Virus record (IMG/VR): IMGVR_UViG_3300021405_000012
Span: 1 to 64,000 of that record
Source of the DNA: a virus
DNA: 64,000 nt
Reading direction: 5' to 3' (one strand)
Under the pieces are notes generated by a model, which saw only the letters and a list, made by a program, of their open reading frames with translations, searched no databases and had not been told where the DNA came from. Position numbers and translations under genes: made by a program. Positions 2,798 to 39,931 of the stretch are shown here, piece by piece (the first letter of the stretch is position 1; the number at the start of each line of letters is the position of its first letter).

Positions 2798-3189
2798 AAC
2801 GCGATCCTCGACTCCATGGTCTGCATGTAGGCGTGAAAGTCGAAATAACGGAATCCGCGGAAGCTATCGTAGTAGACGGGCTCCGAGCTGGGCGTGGGAG
2901 CGAAGGGCCCAGGACAGACGGCGACGTAGCGGTCGCGTTTAATCTGCCACTCGGATTCCCGGTTTTCGAGGGAGCGCAGTTTTGGAAGCTGGCCCACATT
3001 GCAGACGATTTCCTGCACTGTAAACCGGCCGAGAATTTCTCCTTGGTGAGTGAACCAGAGGTGCTCGATCTCCTGCTTCGGTTTGCCCTTCCCCAGCGTG
3101 AAGTAGAACAGGGCGTACTCTGAGCGGAAGATTTTCAGCACCTTGCGGCGCTCCATGAAGGCTGGCCAGGTCTTGAGGATGTCGGGCAT
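2794..3189 (-). CDS. hypothetical protein, possibly ASCH/PUA-like (131 aa)
   Basis: This 131-residue protein lies just upstream of the methyltransferase and overlaps it by ATGA, so the two are probably translationally coupled. The middle part (HLWFTHQGEILGRFTVQEIV) alternates like the beta-barrel of ASCH/PUA domains, which bind RNA or modified bases, but this resemblance is weak. The aromatic C-terminal part (YYDSFRGFRYFDFHAYM) is distinctive. No signal peptide or membrane segment is seen. Confidence 0.6.
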   Translation of the reverse strand: MPDILKTWPAFMERRKVLKIFRSEYALFYFTLGKGKPKQEIEHLWFTHQGEILGRFTVQEIVCNVGQLPKLRSLENRESEWQIKRDRYVAVCPGPFAPTPSSEPVYYDSFRGFRYFDFHAYMQTMESRIAL

Positions 3190-3190
3190 T

Positions 3191-3475
3191 TTATAACAGG
3201 CTCATCTGCTCGGGCGCAACTGGAGTCGGCCCGGCTGCCCGGCGCGACTTCCAGGCGTCATAGGCTTTCTGGCACTCTGGGCAAAGATGCTTCCCCGGCG
3301 CCACTTCTTTGGCGTGATGCGAGCACAGCGAACGGTCGCAGGTACCGCTCTTTTTCATGGGCGTCTTGCAGTCACACTCGAATTCACATGGACGTCCGCA
3401 GGCACAGAAGCGTTTGCGACTCCGCCCGCCGCAGATGATGACGTGCTGCCCGCCGATTTTCAGGTGCTCACACAC
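3191..3475 (-). CDS. Cys-rich zinc-binding protein (94 aa), ends in a clamp-motif-like tail
   Basis: It starts at GTG and overlaps the preceding gene by 8 nt. About ten cysteines occur as CACGRPCEFECDC, CDRSLCSHH and CPECQ, consistent with two zinc-binding knuckles. Small proteins of this type are common in phages. The last residues, EQMSLL, resemble a bacterial sliding-clamp-binding peptide (consensus QLxLF). Function is unknown; a DNA- or RNA-binding adaptor is plausible. Confidence 0.65.
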   Translation of the reverse strand: MCEHLKIGGQHVIICGGRSRKRFCACGRPCEFECDCKTPMKKSGTCDRSLCSHHAKEVAPGKHLCPECQKAYDAWKSRRAAGPTPVAPEQMSLL

Positions 3476-3719
3476 TGTCGCGCAACCTCTGGCGCTCGGC
3501 TTCGATCATTTCCTCGGTCTTGGCCCGGCCGACTGCCATGAGCAGTTTGTGGCCTTCCGTACACAGGCTGGCAGGGCTGTCTTCCCGCCCGAGCAGATGC
3601 TGGGTACACATGCGGCAGTCGTCGCAGTGGGCGTGGAAGACGTCGGCGGCGCGGCGGACTGGGTTGGGATCGGTCACCGTCTTGGTGTTGGCGTCCAAAC
3701 AAAACATAGGATTGCCCAA
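3468..3719 (-). CDS. small Cys/His protein (83 aa)
   Basis: This 83-residue product has HCDDCRMCTQH around residues 31-41, a compact Cys/His cluster likely to bind a metal, followed by a charged helix ending in AERQRLRDSV. Its 5' end is overlapped by the tiny membrane gene at 3674-3826 and its 3' end by the next zinc protein, as expected in a compressed phage operon. Not recognised further. Confidence 0.6.
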   Translation of the reverse strand: MGNPMFCLDANTKTVTDPNPVRRAADVFHAHCDDCRMCTQHLLGREDSPASLCTEGHKLLMAVGRAKTEEMIEAERQRLRDSV

Positions 3720-8988: not shown

Positions 8989-10614
8989 CTAGCGGTTTTT
9001 CCGCCCGCGCATGCGCTGCCGCGCCGTCCCGCCGTAGCTCTGCGGCTGCTTTGCCTGCTGCAATTCCCGCTGCATCTTGTCGCGGTAGAGCACCGCCGAG
9101 GTGGGGTCTTTCTTCCAGAGTTCCGCCAGGTCCTGCTCCATCTCCGCCTGTCTGGGCTTTTTGGCGGTGCGCTCGGTGGCCCAGCTGTAGTAGCCGTAGC
9201 GGCACATATCGTAAAAATCATCAAGTTCGTCGCCGGAGATTTTGTCGACGTCGCCTTCCTTGTCGGGATCCTTTTTGCGGGTTTGCAGGGCTTCGATGGT
9301 CTTCACGCAGTTGCGGCAGATTTTGAAGTCGCCGTCTTTCAGTCCGGAGTACATCTTCATGGCTCCGCCGACGCGATCGTTTCGGGCCTTCGAGAAGCCC
9401 AGCCCGTACACTCCCAGAATCTCGTTCATCTGGTGGGCCAGGTTGAAACTCATCCCGCCGGCGCGGCCATGTTCCGACCAGGCATCGGGCGAGAGGTACC
9501 ACGGCATCCAGCGGCGTTCGGGCACACTCAAGCCGCTGCCACCATCGGTCACCCAGCGTTCGACGATGGCGCCGGCGAAACCTTTGGCAGTCTTGTCGCG
9601 GAAGTCATGGCCGCCCATCTCGTCGACCATGTAGGCGACACCTTGCGGACACTCCGCGGTTTCAGGCGCGTGTTTGAACAGGCCCGCGGCTGGCGCAGAA
9701 ATCGAGAAGCCGTAATCGCATCCCGGCCACTGCGGCCACCACCACTCCTCGCCAATGTCCTTGCGATCCACGGTCATCGAGGCATAGTCCCAGATGTCAA
9801 AGAACTGGCCTTCCGTGGCTTCCCAGCATCCGGCGAGAAGCGCTTTCGCGAGCGCCGGCGACTGCATGTAGAGCTTGGCCACATAGTCCTGCCCCAACTT
9901 GTCGTGACCATAAACGCTGCCCAGGATGTAGGCGACGGAGAGCTTGTACTTGCCGTCGGGGCCTTCGAGCGGGCGGTCGTACTCCGGCCAGCGCCCATTC
10001 CACTGCAAAACTTTTTGCGGCGGGGCTTTCAGGGGTTCGCAGTGCGGACACACTCCGCCCATGAAGAGTTTCTTGTGCCATTTCGCGCCGATGTTGCCGG
10101 GGTTGGTGGTGAAGATGGCGCGGATTTTGAGGCTGGGATCGGGGGAGCGGCTGCGAGTCAGAATGGTGCGCGGAAACTTCTCTTCCCATTGCGTCGATTC
10201 ATCGAAGGCGGCGGCGGAGATTTCCTTGCCCCAGTTGTTTTCGAGGTCAGCCTGGTTCTTCAGCTGGCGAAAGCGGAAGGCGGCCCCCGAGGGCCATACC
10301 CAGGTTGTGGTCAAACCTTTGTGGCGATCGACGGAACGCGCCCCGGTTTGGGGGAAGAGTTCGCCGGCAATGGTCATCGCCTGCTCCATGGCGTCATAGG
10401 TGCGGCGGAAAAAGTACGACGACATGCGCGGACCGTCGCGCTCCTGGATGAGCGAGACCAGGGCGGAGGAACTTTTCAGGCTCCCAGCCGCCCCGCCGAA
10501 TAGCAGCAGATCAGCTTCGCTATCGAGTGCGTCCTCCTGGGCCTGATAGGCAGGCCACCAGCGCAAGGCCCGCCGGACTGGGTCGGGCAGCACCTGGACA
10601 TCACTTGCTTGCAT
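8989..10614 (-). CDS. terL: terminase large subunit
   Basis: This is the ATPase-nuclease motor that packages DNA through the portal. The P-loop variant GGAAGSLKSS is at residues 40-49, the Walker B with catalytic acid AAAFDE at ~135-140, and a coupling motif TTNPG near 168-172. The nuclease half begins around CDYGFS (~305) with further acidic residues (PDAW; GDELDDFYDM). The length of 541 residues suits the family. The C-terminal tail is basic (RQRMRGRKNR). Its start overlaps the small subunit gene by 14 nt. Confidence 0.95.
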   Translation of the reverse strand: MQASDVQVLPDPVRRALRWWPAYQAQEDALDSEADLLLFGGAAGSLKSSSALVSLIQERDGPRMSSYFFRRTYDAMEQAMTIAGELFPQTGARSVDRHKGLTTTWVWPSGAAFRFRQLKNQADLENNWGKEISAAAFDESTQWEEKFPRTILTRSRSPDPSLKIRAIFTTNPGNIGAKWHKKLFMGGVCPHCEPLKAPPQKVLQWNGRWPEYDRPLEGPDGKYKLSVAYILGSVYGHDKLGQDYVAKLYMQSPALAKALLAGCWEATEGQFFDIWDYASMTVDRKDIGEEWWWPQWPGCDYGFSISAPAAGLFKHAPETAECPQGVAYMVDEMGGHDFRDKTAKGFAGAIVERWVTDGGSGLSVPERRWMPWYLSPDAWSEHGRAGGMSFNLAHQMNEILGVYGLGFSKARNDRVGGAMKMYSGLKDGDFKICRNCVKTIEALQTRKKDPDKEGDVDKISGDELDDFYDMCRYGYYSWATERTAKKPRQAEMEQDLAELWKKDPTSAVLYRDKMQRELQQAKQPQSYGGTARQRMRGRKNR

Positions 10615-11464: not shown

Positions 11465-14400
11465 TCACTGCGCGGCGGCCTCTGCCTTCTCAGTCTCCGC
11501 CCGTTCGCCCTTCTCCAGCAAGTTCATGCGCTTCTGGCGAACCTCGCGATGCAGCTCCTCCATTGCTTTCTTGTCACCGTCGCGCTTCGCGGCCTCGTAC
11601 ACGCGCATGATTTCCGAGTAGCTGAAGCCGTGAACCGTATCCTGCAACGGAGTCAGCCGGGCGCGTTCCCGGAGCTGCTTTTCCTGGGTGAGCGTGATCT
11701 GGTGTTTGGCGCGGGCCTCGGATAGAGGCTTCGAATCGCCCTTGCGCAGTGCGTCGAGAATCTCCCGGCGCCGGCTGTAGACTTGCTGCTCTTCGGGATC
11801 AACTGCCTCAGTGCCGACTTTCGTCATGGCGATATCCGCGGCGACACGCTCGGCCGGAGTCTTCACGCTCTTCAGTCCCAACTGCTGTAGCCAGAATTTC
11901 TTTCTTTGCTCGGCGCTTGACCAGGCCCGTTCGGCTTGCCCGATCTGGCCCATTTCGCCGATGACGTAGTGGCCGAGTTCGTCGCGCTGCGTCGACCAGG
12001 TCGCGTGCGGATCGACAATGTTTCGCCCGGAATACGACTCGCGGTTGTTCAGCAGGTCCATGCCACCCTTGAGCAGCGGGCTCGGCATCAGCACGCGCTG
12101 GGCGGTGGCGCCGACCCCGGCTTCCCGGCGGGCCATCTTGTCGACGGCTTCCATGAAGCCGACCAAGCCGAAACGCTTCACCGCCAGATGCGCATCGTGG
12201 CCGAGTTCTTTGGCTTTGTCGTCGAGCCAAGGCAGGATGCCGTACATCAGCAGTGCCAGCATGGCCCACTGCGACCAGGCAGTACCAACTTCGCCCGCTT
12301 TGGAGTTGTCGCCGGTGGGCTCTTTCAGTCCCAGCGCCGCCTTGCCCATTTCGAAGGGTGCTTTAAGCAGGTGGTAGTGCCAAGGGCCGAAGATGAACAC
12401 TTTCGGGCTGCGGAAGGCCTTCGAGAGCATAGTGCTGTCGGCGATGCGTGTGGGCACGCGGTAGTCGGCCAATATGCGGACCGTGTCCGCCAGCGCATCC
12501 TCGAACGACATACCCTTTGCCTGCTTCTCATAGGCCGACTGCAACAGGAAGAAATCGCTGGAATGCCACGCCACGAAGTTCGAGAGCGTCTTCAGCGGGC
12601 CCAGGATGTAGGCGTACTTGGCCTCCGTGAGTCCGATCGCGTCGGCGATGCGCATGGCCCACGGTTCTTTCTTGCCCAATCCCTCGGCCAGCCGTTCGTA
12701 GAAGAGCTTGGTGACATCCTGCGTCAGTTCGCGGTGGGATTGCAGCGCGGCGCCGGCATCGAGCGCAGCCTTGAAATCGTCGTTCTTGGTGAGCACCGCA
12801 TGCAGCGCTTTCGAGCTGGTGCGGTACATGCGCACGTAGTTGGTGGGGAAAAACCCGTGCAGGCCTTTCTCGACCAGCCAGTCCATGCCGACGTTGCCGG
12901 CGTGCATGAGAGGGTTGAGCAACATCACTAGGCGCATGAATTTGCCGACCTGGTCGAGCACGTTCGCCTCTCCACCCTTCAGGCTGTCGGCGTAGCGATC
13001 AAGGACCTCGGACGTCCGGGGCTCGAAGTAGTAGCCATGGAACTGCGGGAGCTGCGTGGACTTCCAGCCCTTGGGCGGATTGCCGCTGCCTTTCCAGGCA
13101 ATGTCTTTGAATTCCGGCGAGGCTTTCAGGCCTTCGATGAAGTGCATCGCATCGAGCGCCGATTCCAACTGGATATTGGAAACGAGCAGAGACGCCAGCG
13201 CCGAATGATAATATTCCATGTCGGTGTTGTCCTCGATCTCGCGCGTGGTCGCCTGTACCACCTTCCAGTCGTAGCCGTCCGGCCCTTCGACGATCTTGCC
13301 CTTATCGTAGAACGCGGAATTTGGCTGGCCTTCAGGGAAGGTCTCATTCTCTTCGTCGGTTCGGCCGTTTGCGTTCTTGATCTCCCCGAGTTCGGTGGGT
13401 TCGCCTTCCTGCCACATGGTCGCGTGGCCGCCTTTGATTGAGATGACGCGCCGGTCCCCGGAATCATTCTCGATGGCCATCATGGTGCGGGTCTTCGTCT
13501 GGGGCGCGGATTTCGAGAGGCCTTTCCCGCCCACACTGGTGCGAATCTTTTGCGCGATGCGATCGAGCGCGCCGCCTTTGCCCTTCACCGTGCGGTGGAC
13601 GTAGTTCTCAAGGGGCACGCCGCCGGCCGTCAGTTCGGTGTAGGCCTTCTCGTTGCGCTCCGCGATCGGCAGCATGTCATCGAAGCGGTTCTCCTGGGCG
13701 TCGGTGAGTTCGTCGCTTTCCTGGTCCTCGAGGTGGTGGTAGATGGCTTCGTCATCGGCCTTGGTCAGCCCGGCTTTCTTGGCTTCGAGGAAGGCATCGC
13801 GGGCGCGCAGTTTGCGGGCATCTTTGCGGGTTTCGAGGGTTTCGAGCTGGTGCTCGATGTCGCGGGCGATCTTGGTAGCGGCTTTGACGTCTGTCAAGTA
13901 AGACTTTACAGCGCCGGCGGCGTCGACGGCCGCTTCGCCGAGCTTCGAGAGGTTGGCTTCTCCCGACTCGCCGGTCAGCAGGTTCTCTGCCTTCGGTGCG
14001 GGTGCTTCCTTCGGTGCGAACGATTTCGCTTCTTCGGCCATGCTGGGAGAGGCGTAGAGCGTGGTTTTCTTCAGCAGCTCCTCGATGACCTGTGTCTCCT
14101 TCCCCTTGGGGATAGCCGCCCGCATCGTGTTCTGCTGCGAAACAAAATCGCCGGTTAGGTCGGTGATGCCGTGGTCCAGGAAGTACTTGCCGCCGCGCGC
14201 CTTGGCTCTCGGCGTTACGATCGCGAGCTTTCCGGCATCGTTGACCACGCGCACGTTTCCATCGCGGCTGGCGATGCCCATGTCCTCGATGCGCGGGTTG
14301 ACGGTCTTGCGCAGGAACTTCAGCGCGTGCGCGGCGTCCCGCAGCCGGTAATCGCCTTTGGTGTTCTTGCTGAAGTCGAACTTCTTAGGCAGCAGAATGC

Positions 14401-17400
14401 CCTGCTCAGTTGTGCCGTCGGCCTTGGTGAAGTTGATGATCGTGCCGCGCGTGTCGGTCAGTTCGCCATAGGCTGCCAGCAGATTGCCGGTGATGATCTT
14501 GGCAGTCTCGCGGGTCTCGGCTTTCGTGCCGCGGAAAATGTCCTCCGGTTTGTCATAGAGTTTCCGTTCCTCGATGCGCTGCACCTGCGTGGCTGGAACG
14601 GCGAGTGTCCGCAGGGAGCCGTTCGTCGCCAACGTGACGTTGATTTTACTGAGAGCGAACGGATTGCCGGTGCCTTTGTGGGTGCTGCGGATATTGACAA
14701 CGGCGGCGTTATAGAGATCGCCATTGATTTCGACGCGCCAGGTTGAGCCGATCTCGTGGTCGCGGATGAAGTCCCGCGCCGTGCGCGCAACGATTTCAGA
14801 TTGCCCCACCGTGGGGCTCGCTGGGTCGAGGGTCTGTTTGTAGTACGTGAGCTCGCCGTCTAGTTTCTCGATCAGCTCTTTTGAGTGCGCGGATGGCGTC
14901 TTGCCGTCGAGGTGCTCTTTGATGCTGGCGGTGACTTCATCGGGAGCCAGCGGTTTGCCCTGAGATTTGATCGAGTACTCCCCGTAGGTTGCGGCTTCGC
15001 CAAAGGGTGAAGCGGGATTGGTCGCCGCCACCAGTTCGTAGCCGCGGGTTTCCTTGGCGTCGTAATCGAAGGTCTTCGGCTCGAGCTCGTTCTGGTTGGT
15101 TGAATCGAGGTAAGCGATATAGTCGTTGTACTGCTGCTCGACCTCGTTATAGAACGCCTCTTGCACTTTGACCGGAAGGATCGCCAACCGCCCAGTTGCC
15201 TTGCGGGCGATGTCCTCAGTCGGGCTGCCGTCCTCGTTGAGCGGAGTGACGTGCAGCATGCTCGCGAGTTCCGCGTTGTCTCCGAGATAGTTTCCGACAA
15301 TCTGATCGCCGTACTTGTTGAGCATGTCCGCGGCTTTTACCGAGGTCGCGGATTCTGTGTTGCTCGAAGTGTTCGCGTTCAGCGACTTCATTTTCTTCGA
15401 CAGCAGGGCCGTCGGGCGCTTCTCTGCCGGCAGGTCGGCGTTGAGGATGGTGTATCCGGGTAGCCGCACTTGGCCGGTGCGGTTGATTCGCCCCAGCATC
15501 TGCATGAAGATGTTGATGTCCTGCGCCGGCTGGGCAACGATCATATGGCGCGGCTTCTGGTCTTTGAACTTCTCGGAAGCGTGGGCGCTGATGCCCGTCG
15601 AGCCAGCCACATTCAGCAGAAGGGAATCCAGGCGGCCATCGTTGAACCGGCGAATGGTCTCGACTTTATCGTTCTGCTCCTTCAGCGGGACGTGCGACAG
15701 CTTCGGCTGCTCTGGGTTGCTGTAGTCCACGGACAGATTGCGGCCGGTGATTTCAGCCACGGTGTAGCCCGCATCCTCGATGCGCTGGCGGATCCAGTCG
15801 ATCGGTGACACCGGAAGATCAATCTTCAGCTTGTCGATGGTCTTCTGGGCGTCATCATAGGCATGCCGGGTCACGGGATCCAGTTCGTCGAGGGGAACGT
15901 ACTTCTTGGTTTTGTTGCCCATGGCGTCGGTGATCTGCAAGTACCGGCTGCGATCAAGGGCGCGCGAGAGCACGTTGCGGTAGTCGAAGTCTTCAAGCCG
16001 ATCTCCGGGCTGTAATCCCTTGTCGCCAACGTAGGCCGAGAGGAATGAACCCATCGTGTTATCGACGGCAATGACTGGCTTTTCGCCGCGCTTGATTGAC
16101 GCGATCGCATCATCGGCTGCGGTGTTGGCCTTGATGCCCAGCAGCATCTGGCGCACGAAGTTGTGAACCACCGAGGAGAACTCGGTGTGGTGTACCGACT
16201 TGCCGGCCTCGTTTCCACCGCCAACGATTTTGTTGGCCTTGTTCTCTGCGACAGCCGCCTTCTGTGCCTCTCCGACGTAGGTCGTATGGAAGGACTTGTC
16301 GGCGTCCACGATCGCGCGCAGGGCGCTGGTGGCACCGTCGGCAATCTTGGTGTGTTCGGCCCGGTGCTCGGTATCCACCTTGGTCGCCATGCTGATGCCG
16401 TCGTAGGAACGCTCCCGGCGGAACATCTGGCCAGCCTTCACCAGATTGTTCGAGACCACGGTTTGCAGGGGCAGGCCGCCGTCTTTCATGGCCTGCACCA
16501 GTGTGCCGCTGTCGCCGATGGCTTCGCCCATGTCCGTCTTGAAATAAAGCGGCATGTTGTCGGGGCGCTTTGCGTAGGTGGCCGAGAGGTAGGTCACGCC
16601 TTTGGCGTCGGCCAGCAGGCCACGAAGGAAGTCGCCGGTGTTCGACGAACCGCCGGCGTTGTGGGATTCGTCCAGAACAAAGATCGCTTTCCGCGCCAGC
16701 GACATAAGCATTCCCTGCTGGGCGTTGTGCACATTGACCTGCGAGTAGGTCAGAAACACCGCGTTGCGGCCGGCGGGCAGCGTCCCAGTGTTGCGAATCT
16801 GCTCTATCAGCTTTCGATGATTGGGCTTGTTGGCGAAGGCGCGGCTGCCGTCCGGGCGCGTGATCCACTCGTCTGAATTCACAATGAAGGGATTCACGTC
16901 ATCCGTTCCGATGTCCGAGAGATCGCCGTACATATCGGTGAACAGGGACGGCGCTTTGGTGATGAAGACGGGGATATCGCCTTTCTTGGCGGCCCAGCGG
17001 ATGATGGCCGCAGCCTGGCGTCCTTTGCCGATGCCGGTCTGATCGGCAATGACGATGGCTTTGCCCTGCTGGATTTCGTGGATAGCTGCGGCAACCGAGT
17101 CAACCTGCAACCCCATAAAAGCGTTGTGCAGGTCGTCGACCGAGGGATAGCCAAGTTCCTTCGCCACGTACTTGTCGAGGTTGCCGACTTCATCTTCGAG
17201 GACGTTCATCGCCTGCTCCAGAGGCGATTTCATGTTTACCGGGATCAGGACGTTGGCGTCTTTTTTCTCCGAGGCCGGGGTGTAGGGAGTTTGGAAGTCG
17301 TTCGACTTCGGACTTATTGCGCTAGGGCTTCCGTTATCTGGTCGAGAGTTGGCAACTCGCTCGGGTCGAGACTCAGGCTTGTGCCCTTTTTCCAGTCGAT

Positions 17401-20400
17401 CCGAGTGAGCAATGTCTGCATCTGGCCGCAGGCTAGGATCTGAGACGGCCACTCTTCCGTCTCGTCCTGCATTGCGATCTGATACAGGTCCGACAGATTC
17501 TCCGGATCGCTCGACAGCACCTGCTGCGCCTGCTCCGGGTCGTCCTCGATCAGTTTTCTCAGGCGCTGCTCCAGGAGTGTTTCGTACAGGCTGCGATTCA
17601 TCGGCTGGCTGCCGCTGTAGGGAACTGTCAGCCCCTCGCTCCCGTGCAGGTCGGGGCTCGGCCGCCATGATTTCACTGAACTGCTCATACACCTGATCCC
17701 ATGACTCTAGTCGTTGGATGCTTTCAACCGGAGGGGCGATTGCAGAAGATGTTTGCCTTCCGCCGATCGCGATAACCCGAACTGGCCACGCCGCACCCTG
17801 GCGCCCATAGAGTTTTCCCTCGATCTCGAAATGCCCACTCACATCATAGTGCGAATAGAGCCAATTTAGGAAGATATTGTCATCGGTGCTTTGGCCGCCG
17901 GGGGTGAACTTGTTGGCTCCGAGGATCAGGGTAGCCTTCCCGTCGTCCTTCATGGCGTCAAGGGCTCGAGCTGCAATCAGGTGGTCGATCTGGCCGATCT
18001 TGTAGCCGTCTACACGTTCCTTCGTCGCTTTGCCCTGGGCGTCTTTCACCGAGCCGAACGGCGGGTTGGCCACAACCGCGTCGTATGCCTTACCCAGAGT
18101 GGCCTTATGTGCTGGGCTCCACGCCTCTGCGGCATCCCGTTGGGTGACTTCCTGGTATCCCTGCTTTTGCAGTGCAGCCATGCGCTCCGGGTTGAGCTCG
18201 TTCACCCGCGTCTTCTTGGGGTTCGCTGCGATGGTGAGCATGCCGTTGCCGGCAGTCGGCTCGTAGAGACTGCTGTTCTTATCGACTCCCGCCAATTTGT
18301 CCGCGAGGTAGGCCAGCGGCGCGGGTGTGCTGTAGGCCTGGTTCTCGATGCTGGTCGAGGTACGGATGTTCAGGTTTGGCTGGGAATTGTAGAGATCGAC
18401 CAGTTTGTCGAAGGTCTCGCGTGTGTTCTCACCTGCGTCAACGATATCGCGCGCGCGCTGGACCACGGCAACTTCGAGTGCTTCCTGCGCCTGCTTCATT
18501 CGAGCCGGGTCCGCAGGCTTGCCGTCGAAGGCGTCTACGAGCTTTTTCAGCGCTGGGTTGTCTTTCGGCATTTCACCGGCGGCGATCTTCTCCAGCAGGT
18601 GTTCGGTGAGAGCGGCGGCGCCTTTGCTGGTTTTGCCTTTCTGGATGTCGGCCCAGCCGGGTTTCTTCGGCTCTTCTGCGTGCGGCCGCGCTTCGTAGCT
18701 GCCCTCCGGGGTGGGAACGATGTCGGCCTTCTTGACGGTGAATTTCGGCTTCTCCTCGCCTTTCTTAAGCCCATGCGTCACGAAGCTGGGCAGCACGTAC
18801 TTGGCGGGCTTCTCTCCCGCGAGCTTGACCACCTCCTGCTTGCCCTGCCGATCGGTGATCGCGATTTCACTAACTGTGAACTGTTTACCCTTGGTCAACT
18901 CCATGCCGACGTGCCTCTCTGCTCGGTCGGGGCGGACGTAGGCTATAGTTGCGTGAGGTCGGTACTCGAAGTCGGGCTTTTTGAAATCGCCATGCTTCTC
19001 CAGTTCCCCATTGATCCGGTGCAACTCCGGCGCCTCAATCGGTGCGATGATGACGGCGGCGCCGTCGCTGTGCTCGCTGGGCGGGAACTTGTCAGTTTTC
19101 CCGAGCGTAGCCTCGAACGGCGCGAGGCCTGCCAGATACTTCTTGACGCCTTCGACGTCGTCGCCCTTGATCCCGTAGCGTACCGTTACATGATTTCCGC
19201 CCTCTCCGATATCTTTGCCGTCTCCAGCGAGGTCCGCTTTCGAGATGCGGGCCCGAGCGGCTTCTAGAGCTTTGGCAGCTTCGCTCTCTTTGGGAATGTT
19301 GGCCTGGGTTGATCCGAATTTGTAGAGCGTCTCAGGTTTGTCGGCTTCACCGCGGTAAAGTCGGACTGTTCCTGCCCCCCGCGGTACTGCCGGCTTCTCC
19401 GCCCGCACCTTCTGCCCAACGTCCGGGCCCGTCTCAATCGAGTGATCGAAGCCGTGCTGCGTGATGTTCCGCTTTGCCGGGAAGACGGCACCTTTGGCTG
19501 GCTCGGAACTTCCGCCCTTGAGGCCCATGCTCTTGGTGACGATCCCGCCCGGCTCCGGCTTTTCTCCCAACTCCATTTCGAGGTTGGTCGAGTGCGTCAC
19601 CACCAGTGGCCGCTTGCCTGCCTTCGCCATGCCCTCGATTTCGGCGAGCGCTTCGTCCTGGCGCTCCTTGGCCTGGTTATAGGATTCCCCGCCTTTCGGC
19701 ACTTCGTCAGGATGGGCTTTGTAGTGATCCCGGATGTGCTGGATGTCGGAAACCTGCTTGCCTTCGGTTTCCGGCATACGCTGCGGCCGCAACCGTTCGT
19801 CGGCTTCGACGGGTACGCCCAGAGCTTTGCCGACAATGTCGGCGGTCTCTTTCGCGCGCGGCAAGTCTGATGTCACGATGGCAGTGGGTGGATTCCCTTT
19901 CAGGTCCGCCGCCATCTTCTGGGCAGCGGCTTTGCCACGCTCATCAAGACTCTCATCCGACCAACCCGCGACAGTTTCTCTTCCTCCGGCTTGGTCGAGT
20001 TTGGTGGCGCCATGACGCCCGAATATGATCTCTCCGGCCTTGATGTCAGTCTTGGCGGTTTGCTCAACTTGCTTCTCGCCGGCGGCGGAGAGTGTCGCGT
20101 GGTGACGCTTGGGGATGGTGGTAGTCGATTTCGGCTCGGACATCCAGGGCAGCTGGGTAGGCTCGTCGAATTTCACCCGCACCGTGCGCAGCCCGCCGAT
20201 CAGGCCATCGTGCTTGATTTCGGCTTCGGTGTTGCCGGCGGCGCCGATTTGGATCCGGCTGCCCTTTGCGAAGCTTCCAGCAACTCCTTGGCCCGGGGCA
20301 GCAGCTCCAGATACTTCTCCGCCACCTGTTCGAGTGTCAATGTTTCGCTCAGGCAGGTTGGTTCCGGCAGCGGCGGCGGTGGATCCGGCAGCAGCAGTCG

Positions 20401-22000
20401 AAACGTCCTCGCGCTGATTAGCTCGATCGTGCTCGTCTGCTGCGAGTACCGCTGGCTTCGAAGTTTCACTGGGTATCTCCTCTTCGCCCACGATTGTAGG
20501 TGCGACATCCACATTCGTGGACGCTGGGATTGGCTCTTCGGCTAGAATTGCAGGCTGAGCTTGCCCGAGCTCGGCGGCACGCCCGCTACGGGTTTGCCGT
20601 GACCCCCTGGTTTCCTTGGGGGCAGCCGCCGGTTTGGTAGCTGCCCCCGATTTGCCCGTCTCCCCAGAGTTCCGGGCAAATTCCTTCTCCTGGCGCGCAA
20701 CTTCGTCGTTGATGATCGATTGGGCGACCGAGGCGGCTTGTTTCTCATTTTCGATAATGTGTAACTGGCCGTCTGGCCCAACGATTTTCCCCTGTTGCAG
20801 CAACACTTTAGACAGGGTTTCATGGGCTTCCATGACGCCTTGGGCGCGCAGGTTCTCCGGCAGCTTGACCAGCAGTTTGGCGATTCCAGAGACCGTATCC
20901 GAGGAAATGTGGCCCTGCTGGATGTCCTGGGGCAGAGGTGGGCCTTGCGGGGTTGGCTCCGGTTCTACAGGGGGCATGCCACGCACCACGCGGGCGGCTG
21001 CGGTGCGTTTGGCGGCGGCGGCGACCAGAGCGCTGGCTCCGTTGTCGGGCGGCCCTGCAGGGGCGGTTTGCTGGCCTTCGATGGTGGGAGGCTCCAAACC
21101 GGGACCCGCAGGCCGATTTCCCCGAGGGATGACAGTCTCACCCCGAAACGACCCTACTCCACCGCGCAGGCGGATTTCTTCAGGAGTGACCGCGATGCCA
21201 GCGCCAGCACGGCCATTGGCAACGGTTGCAGCCGCCCGAGTCCCTTCCGGACCGCTTTCCATGGAGAACTTGGGCCGCAGCCGGTTGGCGTCTGCGGCGA
21301 AGTAGGCGCTCAGCCCGGTCTTGGTGGCAATCTCCGAGCGTTCCATGGGGGTGAGTTCATCCCAGTGGTCGTGGAGCTGCTTGGCTCCGTCGATCGCGCC
21401 CGCGCCGAGCATGGTGCGGAAACCGCCGCTGATGATTTTTTGCAGGATGGGTCGGGCGGCCGCGCTCGCGAAGAAAGGCCAGTTGCGCACATCGCCGACC
21501 GTGCCGCCAGCGAATTCGCCGACACCCTTGATGGCTCCCATGGTCTTCGGGGCATAAAACTCCATCGCTTTGACCGCATCGCCTTGGGGCGCTCCCGGTT
21601 TCAGTTCTGGCCGGAGAATCGGTTGCAACACAACTGAAGCCGCGCCCTCGGCAATCTCGCCGCCAGCCTTCGCGGTGCGCGCAGCTGCGCGTTCGAACGG
21701 CTGCACCAGTGTGCGGTTCGCCAGATCCAGCGCGGGCACCGCCGCCTGCGGCACCATTTCGCCGAGACGTTCTTCGGGCGTGGGCTGGTTCGGAGCGGCT
21801 TGATAGCTGGAACCGGTGCGCTGGGCGGGGGGCAGAACTTCGGGGTGAAGGATGCTGGGACGGGCTGGGGCTGCGGCTACAGCGGGCGGAATCGGCTCTT
21901 CGCCGACTATCTGGAACTTCGGGGCGGAGGAAGGGCGGGGTTGAGCGCTGGGCGCAGGGATGGGCTCTTCGCCAACAATCTGATAGGTGGGGTCGGGCAC
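11465..22000 (-). CDS. polyvalent protein: histidine phosphatase, 2H phosphoesterase, adenine methyltransferase and DarB-like helicase
   Basis: The protein has 3511 residues and a GTG start. N-terminal: Pro-rich region with repeated QIVGEEPIP motifs (residues ~7 and ~29, with two variants near 500). Histidine phosphatase: GRHGATK near 658 and THST near 801. 2H phosphoesterase: HVTV near 933 and HATI near 1015. N6-adenine methyltransferase: EPTAGNGML near 1245 and NPPFG near 1311. Strawberry-notch/DarB-type SF2 helicase: TGIGKGRQ near 1651, DESHN near 1777, SATYAKRP near 1810, GRINRTGQ near 2170. C-terminal half: helical, with a hydrophobic span WAMLALLMYGILPWL and an acidic/basic coiled tail. 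This is the architecture of polyvalent proteins described in phages and conjugative elements; P1 DarB, packaged and injected to block restriction, also pairs methyltransferase and helicase. Its place among virion genes supports injection. Confidence 0.9.
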   Translation of the reverse strand: MPDPTYQIVGEEPIPAPSAQPRPSSAPKFQIVGEEPIPPAVAAAPARPSILHPEVLPPAQRTGSSYQAAPNQPTPEERLGEMVPQAAVPALDLANRTLVQPFERAAARTAKAGGEIAEGAASVVLQPILRPELKPGAPQGDAVKAMEFYAPKTMGAIKGVGEFAGGTVGDVRNWPFFASAAARPILQKIISGGFRTMLGAGAIDGAKQLHDHWDELTPMERSEIATKTGLSAYFAADANRLRPKFSMESGPEGTRAAATVANGRAGAGIAVTPEEIRLRGGVGSFRGETVIPRGNRPAGPGLEPPTIEGQQTAPAGPPDNGASALVAAAAKRTAAARVVRGMPPVEPEPTPQGPPLPQDIQQGHISSDTVSGIAKLLVKLPENLRAQGVMEAHETLSKVLLQQGKIVGPDGQLHIIENEKQAASVAQSIINDEVARQEKEFARNSGETGKSGAATKPAAAPKETRGSRQTRSGRAAELGQAQPAILAEEPIPASTNVDVAPTIVGEEEIPSETSKPAVLAADEHDRANQREDVSTAAAGSTAAAAGTNLPERNIDTRTGGGEVSGAAAPGQGVAGSFAKGSRIQIGAAGNTEAEIKHDGLIGGLRTVRVKFDEPTQLPWMSEPKSTTTIPKRHHATLSAAGEKQVEQTAKTDIKAGEIIFGRHGATKLDQAGGRETVAGWSDESLDERGKAAAQKMAADLKGNPPTAIVTSDLPRAKETADIVGKALGVPVEADERLRPQRMPETEGKQVSDIQHIRDHYKAHPDEVPKGGESYNQAKERQDEALAEIEGMAKAGKRPLVVTHSTNLEMELGEKPEPGGIVTKSMGLKGGSSEPAKGAVFPAKRNITQHGFDHSIETGPDVGQKVRAEKPAVPRGAGTVRLYRGEADKPETLYKFGSTQANIPKESEAAKALEAARARISKADLAGDGKDIGEGGNHVTVRYGIKGDDVEGVKKYLAGLAPFEATLGKTDKFPPSEHSDGAAVIIAPIEAPELHRINGELEKHGDFKKPDFEYRPHATIAYVRPDRAERHVGMELTKGKQFTVSEIAITDRQGKQEVVKLAGEKPAKYVLPSFVTHGLKKGEEKPKFTVKKADIVPTPEGSYEARPHAEEPKKPGWADIQKGKTSKGAAALTEHLLEKIAAGEMPKDNPALKKLVDAFDGKPADPARMKQAQEALEVAVVQRARDIVDAGENTRETFDKLVDLYNSQPNLNIRTSTSIENQAYSTPAPLAYLADKLAGVDKNSSLYEPTAGNGMLTIAANPKKTRVNELNPERMAALQKQGYQEVTQRDAAEAWSPAHKATLGKAYDAVVANPPFGSVKDAQGKATKERVDGYKIGQIDHLIAARALDAMKDDGKATLILGANKFTPGGQSTDDNIFLNWLYSHYDVSGHFEIEGKLYGRQGAAWPVRVIAIGGRQTSSAIAPPVESIQRLESWDQVYEQFSEIMAAEPRPARERGADSSLQRQPADESQPVRNTPGAAPEKTDRGRPGAGAAGAVERSGESVGPVSDRNAGRDGRVAVSDPSLRPDADIAHSDRLEKGHKPESRPERVANSRPDNGSPSAISPKSNDFQTPYTPASEKKDANVLIPVNMKSPLEQAMNVLEDEVGNLDKYVAKELGYPSVDDLHNAFMGLQVDSVAAAIHEIQQGKAIVIADQTGIGKGRQAAAIIRWAAKKGDIPVFITKAPSLFTDMYGDLSDIGTDDVNPFIVNSDEWITRPDGSRAFANKPNHRKLIEQIRNTGTLPAGRNAVFLTYSQVNVHNAQQGMLMSLARKAIFVLDESHNAGGSSNTGDFLRGLLADAKGVTYLSATYAKRPDNMPLYFKTDMGEAIGDSGTLVQAMKDGGLPLQTVVSNNLVKAGQMFRRERSYDGISMATKVDTEHRAEHTKIADGATSALRAIVDADKSFHTTYVGEAQKAAVAENKANKIVGGGNEAGKSVHHTEFSSVVHNFVRQMLLGIKANTAADDAIASIKRGEKPVIAVDNTMGSFLSAYVGDKGLQPGDRLEDFDYRNVLSRALDRSRYLQITDAMGNKTKKYVPLDELDPVTRHAYDDAQKTIDKLKIDLPVSPIDWIRQRIEDAGYTVAEITGRNLSVDYSNPEQPKLSHVPLKEQNDKVETIRRFNDGRLDSLLLNVAGSTGISAHASEKFKDQKPRHMIVAQPAQDINIFMQMLGRINRTGQVRLPGYTILNADLPAEKRPTALLSKKMKSLNANTSSNTESATSVKAADMLNKYGDQIVGNYLGDNAELASMLHVTPLNEDGSPTEDIARKATGRLAILPVKVQEAFYNEVEQQYNDYIAYLDSTNQNELEPKTFDYDAKETRGYELVAATNPASPFGEAATYGEYSIKSQGKPLAPDEVTASIKEHLDGKTPSAHSKELIEKLDGELTYYKQTLDPASPTVGQSEIVARTARDFIRDHEIGSTWRVEINGDLYNAAVVNIRSTHKGTGNPFALSKINVTLATNGSLRTLAVPATQVQRIEERKLYDKPEDIFRGTKAETRETAKIITGNLLAAYGELTDTRGTIINFTKADGTTEQGILLPKKFDFSKNTKGDYRLRDAAHALKFLRKTVNPRIEDMGIASRDGNVRVVNDAGKLAIVTPRAKARGGKYFLDHGITDLTGDFVSQQNTMRAAIPKGKETQVIEELLKKTTLYASPSMAEEAKSFAPKEAPAPKAENLLTGESGEANLSKLGEAAVDAAGAVKSYLTDVKAATKIARDIEHQLETLETRKDARKLRARDAFLEAKKAGLTKADDEAIYHHLEDQESDELTDAQENRFDDMLPIAERNEKAYTELTAGGVPLENYVHRTVKGKGGALDRIAQKIRTSVGGKGLSKSAPQTKTRTMMAIENDSGDRRVISIKGGHATMWQEGEPTELGEIKNANGRTDEENETFPEGQPNSAFYDKGKIVEGPDGYDWKVVQATTREIEDNTDMEYYHSALASLLVSNIQLESALDAMHFIEGLKASPEFKDIAWKGSGNPPKGWKSTQLPQFHGYYFEPRTSEVLDRYADSLKGGEANVLDQVGKFMRLVMLLNPLMHAGNVGMDWLVEKGLHGFFPTNYVRMYRTSSKALHAVLTKNDDFKAALDAGAALQSHRELTQDVTKLFYERLAEGLGKKEPWAMRIADAIGLTEAKYAYILGPLKTLSNFVAWHSSDFFLLQSAYEKQAKGMSFEDALADTVRILADYRVPTRIADSTMLSKAFRSPKVFIFGPWHYHLLKAPFEMGKAALGLKEPTGDNSKAGEVGTAWSQWAMLALLMYGILPWLDDKAKELGHDAHLAVKRFGLVGFMEAVDKMARREAGVGATAQRVLMPSPLLKGGMDLLNNRESYSGRNIVDPHATWSTQRDELGHYVIGEMGQIGQAERAWSSAEQRKKFWLQQLGLKSVKTPAERVAADIAMTKVGTEAVDPEEQQVYSRRREILDALRKGDSKPLSEARAKHQITLTQEKQLRERARLTPLQDTVHGFSYSEIMRVYEAAKRDGDKKAMEELHREVRQKRMNLLEKGERAETEKAEAAAQ

Positions 22001-22069: not shown

Positions 22070-22085
22070 TGTTCCACGTGGAACG
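22070..22085. promoter_or_regulatory. parS: parS-like ParB binding site
   Basis: TGTTCCACGTGGAACG contains the perfect 14-bp palindrome GTTCCACGTGGAAC, differing from a widespread chromosomal parS sequence only at the last base. No parA or parB gene is in the window. It immediately follows the stop of the upstream gene. Confidence 0.6.
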
Positions 22086-34165: not shown

Positions 34166-35431
34166 CTATGAGCCAAAAACATGCGCCGCGGGACACGCAC
34201 AATCCGTGATGACCGCAGTCGCGACCGGATTGTCGCAGTAGAATTGGACCGGGTTCACATGGGTCGAAGCCAGCTGCGTGGTGGGGCGGCCAGTATTCGG
34301 ATCCATGTAGTTGTAAACTTTGTTCCCGTTGATCAGCAGCCAATACGGATCGGCAAACTTCACGCGACCAAAAGCGTCCGGCTGGAGCAAGAACCATGCA
34401 GTCTGGTCCGCGTTCTTGCCGGCCTTCACGGAGACGCCGTCGATGGTGATCGAGCCCTGGAAGAACAGGTCCAAGCCCTTCGCTTCCCCGTTGACCGGAT
34501 AGAGCTGGCGGTCGTAGCCCAACTCCTTGTAACCCTCGATCTGGGAGTCGTGGGTGTACCAGAAGGAGCCGACCAGAGCCTCTTCACTCAGGCGGTTCTG
34601 GCGGATGATTTTCGCCAAAGCCAACGAGGGAAGCGTGATCTGGTTATTGCCGTTGTCGAAGCCGGCGGCGTTGGTGAACGGGTTCGAGCGCGGAATCCCG
34701 TGCAGGTTGCCGAGCGCGGAGAAGCTGACCATATACTTCAGGCCATTGACTCCGATCGGCGCGCCGTCCGTCAGGTTGCCGTAGCGGCAGATATCGAGCG
34801 GCTGGGCGCCCGGAACGTCGGCGGTGTTGTAGGTGAACTGCTGTTGCGAGCCCACCAGCTGAAAGCGGTTCTGAATAGTCAGCGAGCCGCGCTTGATGTT
34901 GGTGGCGGGATTGACAATATCCACCGTCTGGCCTTGCTGGATCAGGCGGGCGCCGAACGGGGTGGCATTCAAGGTGTAAGTCTTGGTGCCGGGGTTCACC
35001 GCGGAAACGGTTGCCAGCGTGCCTTGGCCGTCGGTCTGGAGCAGGGCGTCGGTCCACTGCTTTTCCATCTCGATGAGGCCATTCAAGGCGCGGGCGACGG
35101 CGTTCTCGATCGAAACTTTATCGTCGGCCTTGGCGCCTACCAACTCAATCAATTCCGTCCAGTTGGTCGAAGAGGCAATCACCGATGGGGTGACCGCTCC
35201 CGCCAGCCAGTCGGGCGAGCTGCCGGCCGGCACTACATCGCCGTCCAGGTTCATAAAGCGCGAATCGCCGGGCAGCGCATCTTCCATCACCAGACGGAAG
35301 GCGCGAGGCGAAACTTGTTGGGCCCGCCCGTTGTTCAGGTGGGTGTAGAGCATCTTGTCGGTCAGCCACAGTTTCGGAATGCGCGGGCTGATGGCTTCGA
35401 TATAGAGGTTGGCAGTCGAGGCTGCGTTCAT
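34166..35431 (-). CDS. major capsid protein
   Basis: The 421-residue protein starts NAASTANLYIEAISPRIPKLWLTDKMLYTHLNNG and has the mix of N-arm, helical E-loop region and beta-rich P-domain expected of HK97-fold shell proteins. It lies directly downstream of a scaffold-like gene and portal in canonical order. The C-terminus has the pair CACPAAH. It is the most abundant protein expected in the virion. Confidence 0.85.
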   Translation of the reverse strand: MNAASTANLYIEAISPRIPKLWLTDKMLYTHLNNGRAQQVSPRAFRLVMEDALPGDSRFMNLDGDVVPAGSSPDWLAGAVTPSVIASSTNWTELIELVGAKADDKVSIENAVARALNGLIEMEKQWTDALLQTDGQGTLATVSAVNPGTKTYTLNATPFGARLIQQGQTVDIVNPATNIKRGSLTIQNRFQLVGSQQQFTYNTADVPGAQPLDICRYGNLTDGAPIGVNGLKYMVSFSALGNLHGIPRSNPFTNAAGFDNGNNQITLPSLALAKIIRQNRLSEEALVGSFWYTHDSQIEGYKELGYDRQLYPVNGEAKGLDLFFQGSITIDGVSVKAGKNADQTAWFLLQPDAFGRVKFADPYWLLINGNKVYNYMDPNTGRPTTQLASTHVNPVQFYCDNPVATAVITDCACPAAHVFGS

Positions 35432-37434: not shown

Positions 37435-37607
37435 GCTCCCGCCTTCTCTTTCGCGTCGAAGATGGGATAGACCATCGCCAGCAGCTCCGCGATCGTAAAT
37501 TTCTCTTTCAGGCTGCGCAGCTCGACGGTGACATCGTGCTGACCGAAGAGGCCCACAGTGACCTTCATCACACTGCCGTCGGGCGCTTGATATTCCACAT
37601 CTGCCAT
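37431..37607 (-). CDS. small protein downstream of portal (58 aa)
   Basis: ATG 37607 overlaps the portal stop (TGATG) and has GAGGAGGAG upstream. The product MADVEYQAPDGSVMKVTVGL, then ELRSLKEKFTIAELLAMVYPIFD, is a compact alpha/beta protein without cysteine. The strong ribosome site and close coupling with the portal support a real gene, perhaps a minor head protein. Confidence 0.65.
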   Translation of the reverse strand: MADVEYQAPDGSVMKVTVGLFGQHDVTVELRSLKEKFTIAELLAMVYPIFDAKEKAGA

Positions 37608-39931
37608 CAGGCTCCTCCTCGGGGTGCTGCCGCAGGCGCAGCGCCCTTACCAGTCGCTGCGGGGTGGCCCAACGATCCTGCCCAGCCGGGAGCGCCTTCG
37701 CTCAGCATCGACTCCGCCTGCACTTCGCCAACATACTGCCGCGCGATGGTCAGATACGCCATCAGGGCTTGCCAGTTGGCCGGCTTCTTGCGGCGCTGAT
37801 CGTAGTTTTTCAGGGCGTAGCGCACCACCGTGGGAATGGTCACCGGAGTCAGATAGTCGCGATCGACGTCGCGGTCGGGCTCGACGATGGGCTTCTCGAC
37901 CGGCTGTCCGGTGGCTTCGTCCTGTCCTGGCACCAGCGGTTGCTGGGCGCCCATGATGGTCGAAATGTCTTTCAAAACCTTGTCGCGCGCGACCTGCTCC
38001 GGCAGTTCCATGTCGGGCGGCCCCAGGTAGAGCATGGCCTGGCGGCGGTTCTCGAAGGTGTCAAGCACTTCCATTACCAGCGGGTTTGGCTCTTTGCCGC
38101 TGGCCATGCCAACCAGCTCTTTGTAGAGCTGGCGCTGCTGGTCGTAGTCGATGGGATAGTCCTGATTGGCTTCCGGGCGTGCAATGGCTTTGGCGCGGAG
38201 ATCGACCAAGCGAATCGGCTCATTCATAAATTCCGGGGTGTCTTCGGATTTCGTGACCAGGTAGTCGTCTCCCGAGGCGTTTCCGGCAAAGCAGTCAACC
38301 GAGAGGTTCGCGCGCAGCGCCCACTCGTTCACTACAGCCTGGTAGTGGCCGCCTTCGGCGGCGCGGGCGGTATTCAGCGACTGTTGCTGGCCCATGCCGG
38401 TTTTGATGTTCTTGTCGGAGCCGCCCCACATCGAAGGATTCACGCCGACCAGCACCTGCACCAGCTGGAAGAGTTCCTGCAGCCACTGGTAGACGCCGTT
38501 GTCCATCTTGAAGTTGGGCTGCCAGCAGGTGTCTTCGAGTTTGCGTCCAATATCGCGGTTGGCGGCGACTGGCACCAGCGATCCCGCGGGAAGGTATTTG
38601 CCATTGAAGGCATCCCCCCACACAAAGGCGTCGTAGATGATGGGCGGATTGCCGGCGCGATCGTGAAATTCGTCGATCGAGTTGCCGCGATCGTTGATCC
38701 TGTCCTGGAAGTCGAGCGCGGAATGTACCGGCGCCGGAGGATATGCTCCCGCATCCTGTTCGGCTCCGCACCAGGTCCACTCTTTGGTGGCTTCCGCTTT
38801 GCGGATGTCGAGAATCGAGTTCTCCTGAATCACCGCCATGCAGCCATCGCCGATCTTGTCGGCCAGCTTCTGGATTTCCTCTTTCGAGGCATCGAGGCCA
38901 TAAATCGAGTCGGGATTGAACCACACCCGGTGATAGCTCAGCGTGTTCGGGCAGATGACCACTCCGCGCTGGGTGCCGGGCGTGAGGGCGCGGATCTGCG
39001 CGATGCGGGTGATTTCGGTGTCGGTGCCGGAAGTGTCGGCGTCGGCGGCGCGCAGCTTTTCCCAGGCTCCGGGATACATTCGCCGGTAGGCGCCCTTGGT
39101 GATCAGGCAGGATAGGTCGATCAGCGGGGTGTTGCCAATCACTCCCGCCCCTTGCGGCGAGGCCTGTGGCATGACTTCACAGTTGAGGATGTTCCAGGTA
39201 TCCCAGCGCACCTGGCCGTTCGGGACTTCGCGCTGGCCAGTCTGCACCGGAACCTTGATGCTCTTGCCGGGATAGAAATTCGCCGAAGTTAACGGACGTC
39301 CGCAACCGATGCAGGGCCGCTTCGAGTCAATGCTTTCAAGGTTGGCGGGAGTGGTCGCGCCGCAGCTGGGGCAGGTGTAGCGGTCGGGCAGAATTTGCTG
39401 GTCGGCCCAGCCCATGATGGGTTCGAAGTGCGTCCCGGTAATGGTCTTGTCCATCGACCAGCGGGTGTGCGTGAAATACGAGCCGGTCAAAAACAGGTAG
39501 TCAAGGCAGAGCGCGAGGAAACCTTTGTCCTGGTTGTCGCCGGCAATCTTGCGGTAGGCGCGGCCACGGGCCTGGGCGCAGCGGTTGTCGAGATCCGATT
39601 CCGAATCTCCCGGCCACCATTCGACCCGCGGCACCGCGCCGCCGAGGTAAGACGTCCAAACCCGGCGCAGCCATTGGATGATGTTCGCCGTCGACTGATA
39701 GATAGCTGCATCGTCGGTGCCCTGCTGAGTGCCTTCCGTCATCCCCGAGGCGGCATCGGAGCCAAAGGGGTTGTAGTAAGCGAACGAGAACGGGTCCCAG
39801 GAGATGTACTGGTTGCCTTTGTTGTACTCGATGGCCCGCAACACGTCGCGCAGCTTCATGCGCCGCGGAATCGCCCAGTCTTCGATGTGGCGGCGCCAGA
39901 TTTTGCAGAGATGGCGTTCGTAAGTCTGCAC
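37607..39931 (-). CDS. portal protein (P22-like, with zinc-ribbon insertion)
   Basis: The 774-residue protein has the wing, stem and clip organisation of podoviral portals, with VLRAIEYNKGNQYISWDPFSFAYYNPF near the start and VNPSMWGGSDKNIKTGMGQQQSLNTARAAEGG near 480-510. Cys187, Cys190, Cys207 and Cys210 (CPSC...CIGC) form an inserted zinc ribbon. The start is uncertain: the frame stays open ~57 codons upstream to a TAA near 40103, includes the homolog-like FFGTQNLGEVQTYERH, and contains a CTG, so translation may begin earlier. It forms the DNA channel at one capsid vertex. Confidence 0.85.
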   Translation of the reverse strand: MQTYERHLCKIWRRHIEDWAIPRRMKLRDVLRAIEYNKGNQYISWDPFSFAYYNPFGSDAASGMTEGTQQGTDDAAIYQSTANIIQWLRRVWTSYLGGAVPRVEWWPGDSESDLDNRCAQARGRAYRKIAGDNQDKGFLALCLDYLFLTGSYFTHTRWSMDKTITGTHFEPIMGWADQQILPDRYTCPSCGATTPANLESIDSKRPCIGCGRPLTSANFYPGKSIKVPVQTGQREVPNGQVRWDTWNILNCEVMPQASPQGAGVIGNTPLIDLSCLITKGAYRRMYPGAWEKLRAADADTSGTDTEITRIAQIRALTPGTQRGVVICPNTLSYHRVWFNPDSIYGLDASKEEIQKLADKIGDGCMAVIQENSILDIRKAEATKEWTWCGAEQDAGAYPPAPVHSALDFQDRINDRGNSIDEFHDRAGNPPIIYDAFVWGDAFNGKYLPAGSLVPVAANRDIGRKLEDTCWQPNFKMDNGVYQWLQELFQLVQVLVGVNPSMWGGSDKNIKTGMGQQQSLNTARAAEGGHYQAVVNEWALRANLSVDCFAGNASGDDYLVTKSEDTPEFMNEPIRLVDLRAKAIARPEANQDYPIDYDQQRQLYKELVGMASGKEPNPLVMEVLDTFENRRQAMLYLGPPDMELPEQVARDKVLKDISTIMGAQQPLVPGQDEATGQPVEKPIVEPDRDVDRDYLTPVTIPTVVRYALKNYDQRRKKPANWQALMAYLTIARQYVGEVQAESMLSEGAPGWAGSLGHPAATGKGAAPAAAPRGGA

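Follow-up and report, generated by a model that had tools for sequence, protein, structure and literature searches.

Phage polyvalent proteins are giant, multidomain proteins that join disparate enzymes and are encoded in a late-gene context (Iyer et al. 2017, PMC5512222). The catalogue of these proteins already holds dyads of a methyltransferase and an SF2 helicase, strawberry-notch helicases and 2H phosphoesterase domains; the dyads have been proposed to move along the DNA as it enters and to methylate it, and the 2H domains, which were never seen with RNA ligases, have been proposed as RNases or destroyers of nucleotide signals (PMC5512222). A precedent is P1 DarB, a head-borne protein of about 2,000 aa that is co-ejected with the DNA and is needed against EcoB/EcoK restriction (PMC12810830, PMC11437467), and the P1 Dar proteins have also been tied to head morphogenesis (PMC12810830). 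The DarB-like proteins of Atu_ph08 and Bcep22 likewise hold an adenine methyltransferase and an SF2 helicase in one very large chain, with cell-wall hydrolase or transglycosylase domains and without histidine phosphatase (HP) or 2H domains (PMC6630229). Catalytic effector domains such as PBECR, InPase and 2H are also known as fusions to portal, MuF and other head proteins, a list in which HP is missing. HP is mentioned neither in the main text on polyvalent proteins from 2017 (PMC5512222, supplementary tables aside) nor in the 2021 jumbo-phage survey, and open-access full texts gave nothing relevant on HP in polyvalent proteins, in phage anti-defence or in fusions with portals, although a mention elsewhere is possible.

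We analysed a stretch of 64,000 nt (the window), which is nearly the whole of a 67,854-bp record of a bacterial virus from soil. Its minus strand carries a single ORF of 3,511 residues, flanked by a terminase pair downstream and by a block of virion-type genes upstream. In the following list, L004 is the giant-protein locus of the related 66.7-kb record G001, and G049 (71 kb) and G050 (43 kb) are two other virus contigs.

11465..22000, minus strand: polyvalent protein ORF, GTG start, 3,511 aa, far longer than ORFs in shuffled sequence
20030..22000, minus strand: N-terminal region, residues 1-657, without known domain, partly common to L004 and G049/G050
19580..20029, minus strand: histidine phosphatase, residues 658-807 (His_Phos_1, E 3.7e-27)
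18839..19210, minus strand: 2H phosphoesterase, residues 931-1054 (2_5_RNA_ligase2, E 2.6e-11)
14021..18622, minus strand: methyltransferase-helicase cassette, residues 1127-2660, a block conserved in relatives and exchanged in G049/G050
17882..18295, minus strand: gamma-type N6-adenine methyltransferase (Eco57I-like), residues 1236-1373 (Eco57I methylase, E 3.5e-6; NPPF at 1312)
16379..17065, minus strand: helicase N-lobe AAA_34, residues 1646-1874 (E 3e-12; Walker A GIGKG at 1656, DESH at 1777)
15272..15763, minus strand: helicase C-lobe Helicase_C_4 (strawberry notch), residues 2080-2243 (E 1e-18)
11510..14014, minus strand: C-terminal region, residues 2663-3497, 52-54% identical to G049/G050 and 39% to L004
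10601..11179, minus strand: small ORF, putative small terminase by its position between the polyvalent gene and the large terminase, weakly conserved in G001
8989..10614, minus strand: terminase large subunit (PHROG 979, E 1.8e-28)
34166..35431, minus strand: candidate major capsid protein, the best-conserved gene of the virion module, 77% identical in G001
37607..39931, minus strand: candidate portal protein by size and position, 64% identical in G001

The stop-to-stop ORF spans 3,523 residues, while mononucleotide shuffling of the window, repeated 50 times, gave none longer than 432, which rules out a chance ORF. A fusion created by assembly is ruled out as well, since HP followed by 2H was found again in the same order in G049 and G050. 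An earlier note, made from the letters alone, had described, with no strand given, one gene with four enzyme types and long regions without a recognised domain, and both parts of this description are borne out. The domain search that it called for, run with Pfam, placed the segments in the families named: all four enzyme types scored above the curated cut-offs and carry their catalytic motifs, and residues 1-640 and 2660-3511 had no Pfam match. The chain unites at least two domains of disparate biochemical activity and is encoded beside packaging and virion genes, as polyvalent proteins are.

When we examined the surroundings, an integrase gene followed by a cytosine methyltransferase-type gene was found beyond the large terminase, and the integrase suggests a temperate phage. 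G001 is syntenic with the window through the virion block, has a terminase 37% identical to that of the window, and encodes a giant protein of its own at the matching position. The capsid and portal genes are candidates assigned from conservation, size and position; PDB sequence searches with the portal, capsid and tail-type genes returned no useful matches, and a search of 396 Acidobacteriota genomes with the candidate capsid protein, run without a positive control, gave no match. The same genomes contain only separate ORFs of 220-224 aa that match the HP part. Two further features of the window were observed. A DNA methyltransferase-type gene at 1334-2797 (minus strand; PHROG 67) matches its profile over protein residues 19-478 against profile positions 116-360, which suggests an insertion in the protein. 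At 22071-22084, 71-84 bp ahead of the start of the polyvalent gene, lies a perfect palindrome, GTTCCACGTGGAAC, for which the chance expectation is 0.03 occurrences with up to one mismatch allowed; its sequence equals the core of the chromosomal parS site, and no such palindrome was found upstream of the polyvalent genes of relatives.

In the methyltransferase-helicase part, the NPPF motif at 1312 and an N-terminal STPAP motif conserved in the alignment identify a gamma-class adenine methyltransferase, and an SF2 helicase with AAA_34 and Helicase_C_4 lobes above cut-offs follows directly on its C-terminal side. The helicase matches strawberry-notch models, unlike the DarB types, and LPD36 was not among the Pfam matches of the 3,511-aa protein. 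Residues 1127-2660 are common to eleven phage contigs of the first scan, with more distant relatives in Bacteroides phage BS-TP4 and Acinetobacter phage MD-2021a. When this part was used as a profile, 336 relatives were found, of which 80 were kept; the set of 89 loci, some of them duplicates, contains ORFs of up to 5,600 aa. The block is kept in relatives at about 40-80% best-segment identity, and their N-terminal regions carry InPase, transglycosylase, ddrB-ParB or LPD1 domains instead. L004 shares with the window N-terminal residues 248-639, the 2H domain and residues 2663-3497, and its protein contains no methyltransferase or helicase by Pfam. In the cultured Bacteroides phage BS-TP4, whose genome includes a reverse transcriptase gene, the relative is gp3 (L002), an unannotated protein of 5,391 aa encoded directly before the portal gene, and this phage would be suited to virion proteomics.

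The 2H domain has the two HxT motifs of its superfamily, H937-x-T939 (HVT at 937) and H1016-x-T1018 (HAT at 1016), both invariant across 41 aligned sequences, and the 2H fold. Its AlphaFold model is confident (pLDDT 92.3), and Foldseek of this model against the PDB matched cyclic phosphodiesterase, Usb1, LigT, poxvirus cGAMP phosphodiesterase and Acb1 (best E 1.5e-6). We then compared the domain with the anti-CBASS nuclease Acb1, a small separate protein encoded by T4 gene 57B, whose reaction product is GpAp[3'] (Hobbs et al. 2022, PMC9117128). The two share the 2H fold and the HxT/HxT tetrad, whereas the window domain is part of a giant protein. A search of solved structures with the 41-row profile ranks Acb1 at the top (E 3.1e-6). 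The five members of the initial alignment all match the Acb1 Pfam model too, mostly with weak scores. Membership in Acb1 was nevertheless rejected, as the window domain scores 19.0 bits against the PF23474 cut-off of 27 bits; the 2H domains of G001, G049 and G050 likewise fall under the cut-off. Because of this score, and because in fold the model resembles CPDase, LigT or Usb1 as closely as it does Acb1, we say only that the domain may work like Acb1, though it is not filed as Acb1.

The closest cultured 2H relative is gp321 of Tunturiibacter phage Tunturi_5, encoded with a head-tail connector gene on one side and a minor tail gene on the other. This protein of 1,362 aa (L017:6603-10691) is annotated as a MutT/NUDIX hydrolase, yet has a 2H domain at residues about 481-651. 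A linker of 37 residues (window residues 839-875, nt 19376-19486) is 78% identical to residues 986-1022 of the L004 ORF; it precedes the 2H domain in the window but follows it in L004, and we read this displacement as a sign of local reshuffling where HP sits.

The phosphatase domain shows the catalytic residues of branch-1 histidine phosphatases, with RHG at 662-664 (R662, H663, G664), a second Arg (R715) and a second His (H803). Its AlphaFold model is confident (pLDDT 90.1), and Foldseek against the PDB matched histidine phosphatases (best E 1.4e-13); the nearest solved structures are small-molecule phosphatases, namely PhoE, glucosyl-3-phosphoglycerate phosphatase and ribazole phosphatase, and SixA is a weak NCBIfam match. 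The fold and these residues are those of the PhoE/CobC-type enzymes, but the general acid of the latter is replaced, since PhoE Glu83 aligns with Pro739, and the domain lies within a larger virion-type protein and probably belongs with a separate phage family. That family is marked by the signature TSDLxRAxxTA...LRPW[ND]xG and by Pro for the usual catalytic Glu. In the window domain, TSDLPRAKETA and LRP are kept, but Q stands in place of W and P in place of G.

DNA pattern scans of viral contigs with TSDLxRAxETA (15 contigs) and RAxxTA-17-RPWx[FILMV]G (68 contigs) together yielded 73 HP ORFs at E 5e-11 or better. In a 51-row alignment of the family, no row departs from RHG, the second Arg or the second His, and Pro occupies the Glu83 position throughout; the constancy of R-P-W is partly circular, as rows came from a pattern that itself demands it. 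The counts are underestimates and not a prevalence, because the pattern requires RPW and one fixed spacing, and the window HP, which lacks the W, was itself missed by it. In the tree, the family stands apart from generic HPs with 99/98 support, but on long branches, and the clade of the window HP groups with the family under the same long-branch warning. When we ran the RPW pattern on 257 billion bases from about 85,000 bacterial and archaeal genomes, only 11 HPs were found, all in Acidobacteriota, a phylum that may have given this family to phages or received it from them. One Acidobacteriaceae genome (L214) carries two adjoining LRPW-type HP genes.

Pfam searches of the ORFs from the pattern scans showed the HP attached to head proteins of several kinds. 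It lies C-terminal to portals of four Pfam families, Phage_portal_2 (L101), Phage_portal_3 (L105, L123, L126), Phage_portal (L119) and Portal_Mu (L133, L153), and ahead of an XkdF-type prohead protease in L104, L113, L135, L138, L146, L154 and L161; among 61 non-redundant HP ORFs, seven are joined to portals and seven to XkdF. Many other HPs of the family are small separate genes. Compared with the known portal- and MuF-fused effectors, this family places another catalytic domain on the portal and adds the prohead protease as a carrier. We found no earlier description in the open-access literature of what these sequences indicate to be repeated attachment of one HP family to virus head proteins. 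Four XkdF ORFs hold HP plus NUDIX or methyltransferase domains ahead of the protease (L154:1-1911, L113:7234-9681, L138:2943-4916, L161:5063-7438), so that prohead proteases are carriers of several enzymes. HP also occurs in other multidomain proteins, with GNAT (L155), with LPD23 and a metallopeptidase (L124), with DUF3293 (L099), and with a Zeta-toxin domain and LPD38 in a chain of 1,899 aa (L117:6605-12301, minus strand).

HP at first looked unique to this phage, as the relatives examined earlier had none, and this was overturned by G049 and G050. Both came from a scan with the 2H alignment, which found 343 relatives, of which 80 were kept. They encode HP and then 2H in ORFs of 4,156 aa (G049) and 3,942 aa (G050), with 56-60% identity to the window in HP and 72-76% in 2H (G049, 56% over the joined HP-2H stretch; G050, 60% in HP and 76% in 2H), and the three HPs form one clade with 100/100 support. 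Of some 90 2H ORFs, only these three encode both domains; in the majority of cases, the HP and 2H domains of these families are found apart. A separate HP gene was present in one of 49 whole records, that of Tunturi_5, and the HP matches in public phage records are generic HPs, mostly from contigs of bacterial appearance.

Between 2H and the C-terminal block, G049 and G050 carry another cassette, in which the methyltransferase shows the motif GNVPFG and the SNF2-type ATPase shows DEAHEYKN. In the PDB this cassette matched a type I restriction-modification methyltransferase and ISWI/SNF2 ATPases; the profile of the window methyltransferase-helicase core gave no match to it. Since HP-2H and the terminal blocks are kept while the slot holds a non-homologous cassette, the sequences indicate that HP-2H is a conserved pair and that the methyltransferase-helicase slot is exchangeable. 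That giant proteins related in their other parts differ in this way suggests selection for what the slot does and not for the enzyme lineage that fills it. The earlier note suggested that the combination had no published description. This holds for HP, which is absent from the 2017 catalogue, and not for the 2H domain and the strawberry-notch dyad, which are already there; the HP-2H tandem pair and the exchange of a whole cassette for a non-homologous one appear to be new relative to Iyer et al. 2017.

The same note had proposed a protein injected with the phage DNA to defeat several defences at once. The polyvalent, DarB-like part of this proposal gains from the domain content, the position beside the terminase pair and the synteny with a related phage; the defeat of defences is plausible for the methyltransferase-helicase part, by the DarB precedent, and unproven for HP and 2H. 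Based on these observations, we consider it reasonably probable that the protein is delivered by the virion, with the HP-2H pair directed at cyclic phosphates and the dyad at DNA protection. From the domains and the gene order we infer the following course. A temperate tailed phage would make the protein late, pack it in the head and release it into the next host together with the phage DNA. The methyltransferase-helicase would travel along the incoming DNA and methylate it or shield it from restriction, as proposed for P1 DarB. The 2H domain would open cyclic phosphodiester bonds, either in cyclic-oligonucleotide alarm signals, as Acb1 does, or at 2',3'-cyclic phosphate ends, so that a 2'- or 3'-phosphate is left at the terminus, and HP would strip this exposed phosphate to give a product unable to signal. 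Since 2H reactions leave such a phosphate and HPs are phosphatases, HP would be the next chemical step, and a phosphatase step after 2H is established chemistry for cyclic ends in RNA repair (PMC7824862); that HP does act on the 2H product is nonetheless a tentative proposal, which we hold at well under even chances. The co-occurrence of HP and NUDIX in the protease fusions would suit nucleotide clearance. A broader generalisation, in which HP-2H is a virion-borne two-step unit that destroys signals and the Glu-less HPs are generally head-borne effectors clearing phosphorylated signals before phage gene expression, is speculative and rather doubtful.

The same two chemistries, in the same order, could instead serve RNA-end repair, where 2H would open 2',3'-cyclic phosphates left on tRNA by anticodon nucleases and HP would take off the phosphate to ready the ends for a ligase. 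The Usb1 and LigT folds among the matches of the 2H model fit this reading, but no RNA ligase was found among the ORFs examined, in line with the absence of ligases beside polyvalent 2H domains (PMC5512222), and we regard it as unlikely. HP might also have nothing to do with 2H and act as an independent protein phosphatase on phospho-His/Ser/Thr/Tyr, reversing a kinase-based defence or resetting host signalling. The frequent occurrence of family HPs without 2H, on portals and proteases, and the weak match to SixA point this way, while the nearest solved relatives are small-molecule phosphatases and HP and 2H stay together though the neighbouring cassette is swapped; we give this reading little credence. 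The Pro at the Glu83 position, found in the window and in all aligned family rows (rows collected with the R-P-W pattern), would suit an HP that has lost or altered its catalytic activity and acts as a binding domain, but the remaining catalytic residues are invariant in the 51 rows and some HPs, SixA for example, work without that general acid, which makes this improbable. Nor do we think it at all likely that the protein goes undelivered and works in the cell that makes it, assembling heads or modifying DNA late in infection: the gene lies among late genes and the Dar proteins of P1 are tied to head morphogenesis (PMC12810830), but DarB is a precedent for ejection (PMC11437467, PMC12810830) and catalytic HPs occur as fusions with many types of portal and prohead protease. 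Head delivery of a polyvalent protein thus stays our preferred reading, and strong hints of it come from the fusion of HP to prohead proteases and to four families of portal. If it is true, a phosphatase family joins the enzymes carried in phage heads, and the HP-2H pairing offers a concrete biochemical test.

The terminal regions of the giant protein are conserved as well, and they probably serve packaging and targeting. At the N-terminus, residues 248-639 are 39% identical in L004, and residues about 80-460 are 32-33% identical to the G049/G050 proteins. The C-terminal block has the higher identity to G049/G050 listed above; used as a query against viral contigs, the C-terminal region gave no matches, and a comparison with the LPD38 of L117 found no relation. 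Residues 1-520 (window 20440-22000) contain short near-repeats resembling QIVGEEPIP (YQIVGEEPIP, FQIVGEEPIP, AILAEEPIPA and PTIVGEEEIP), which are perhaps a packaging or cleavage signal.
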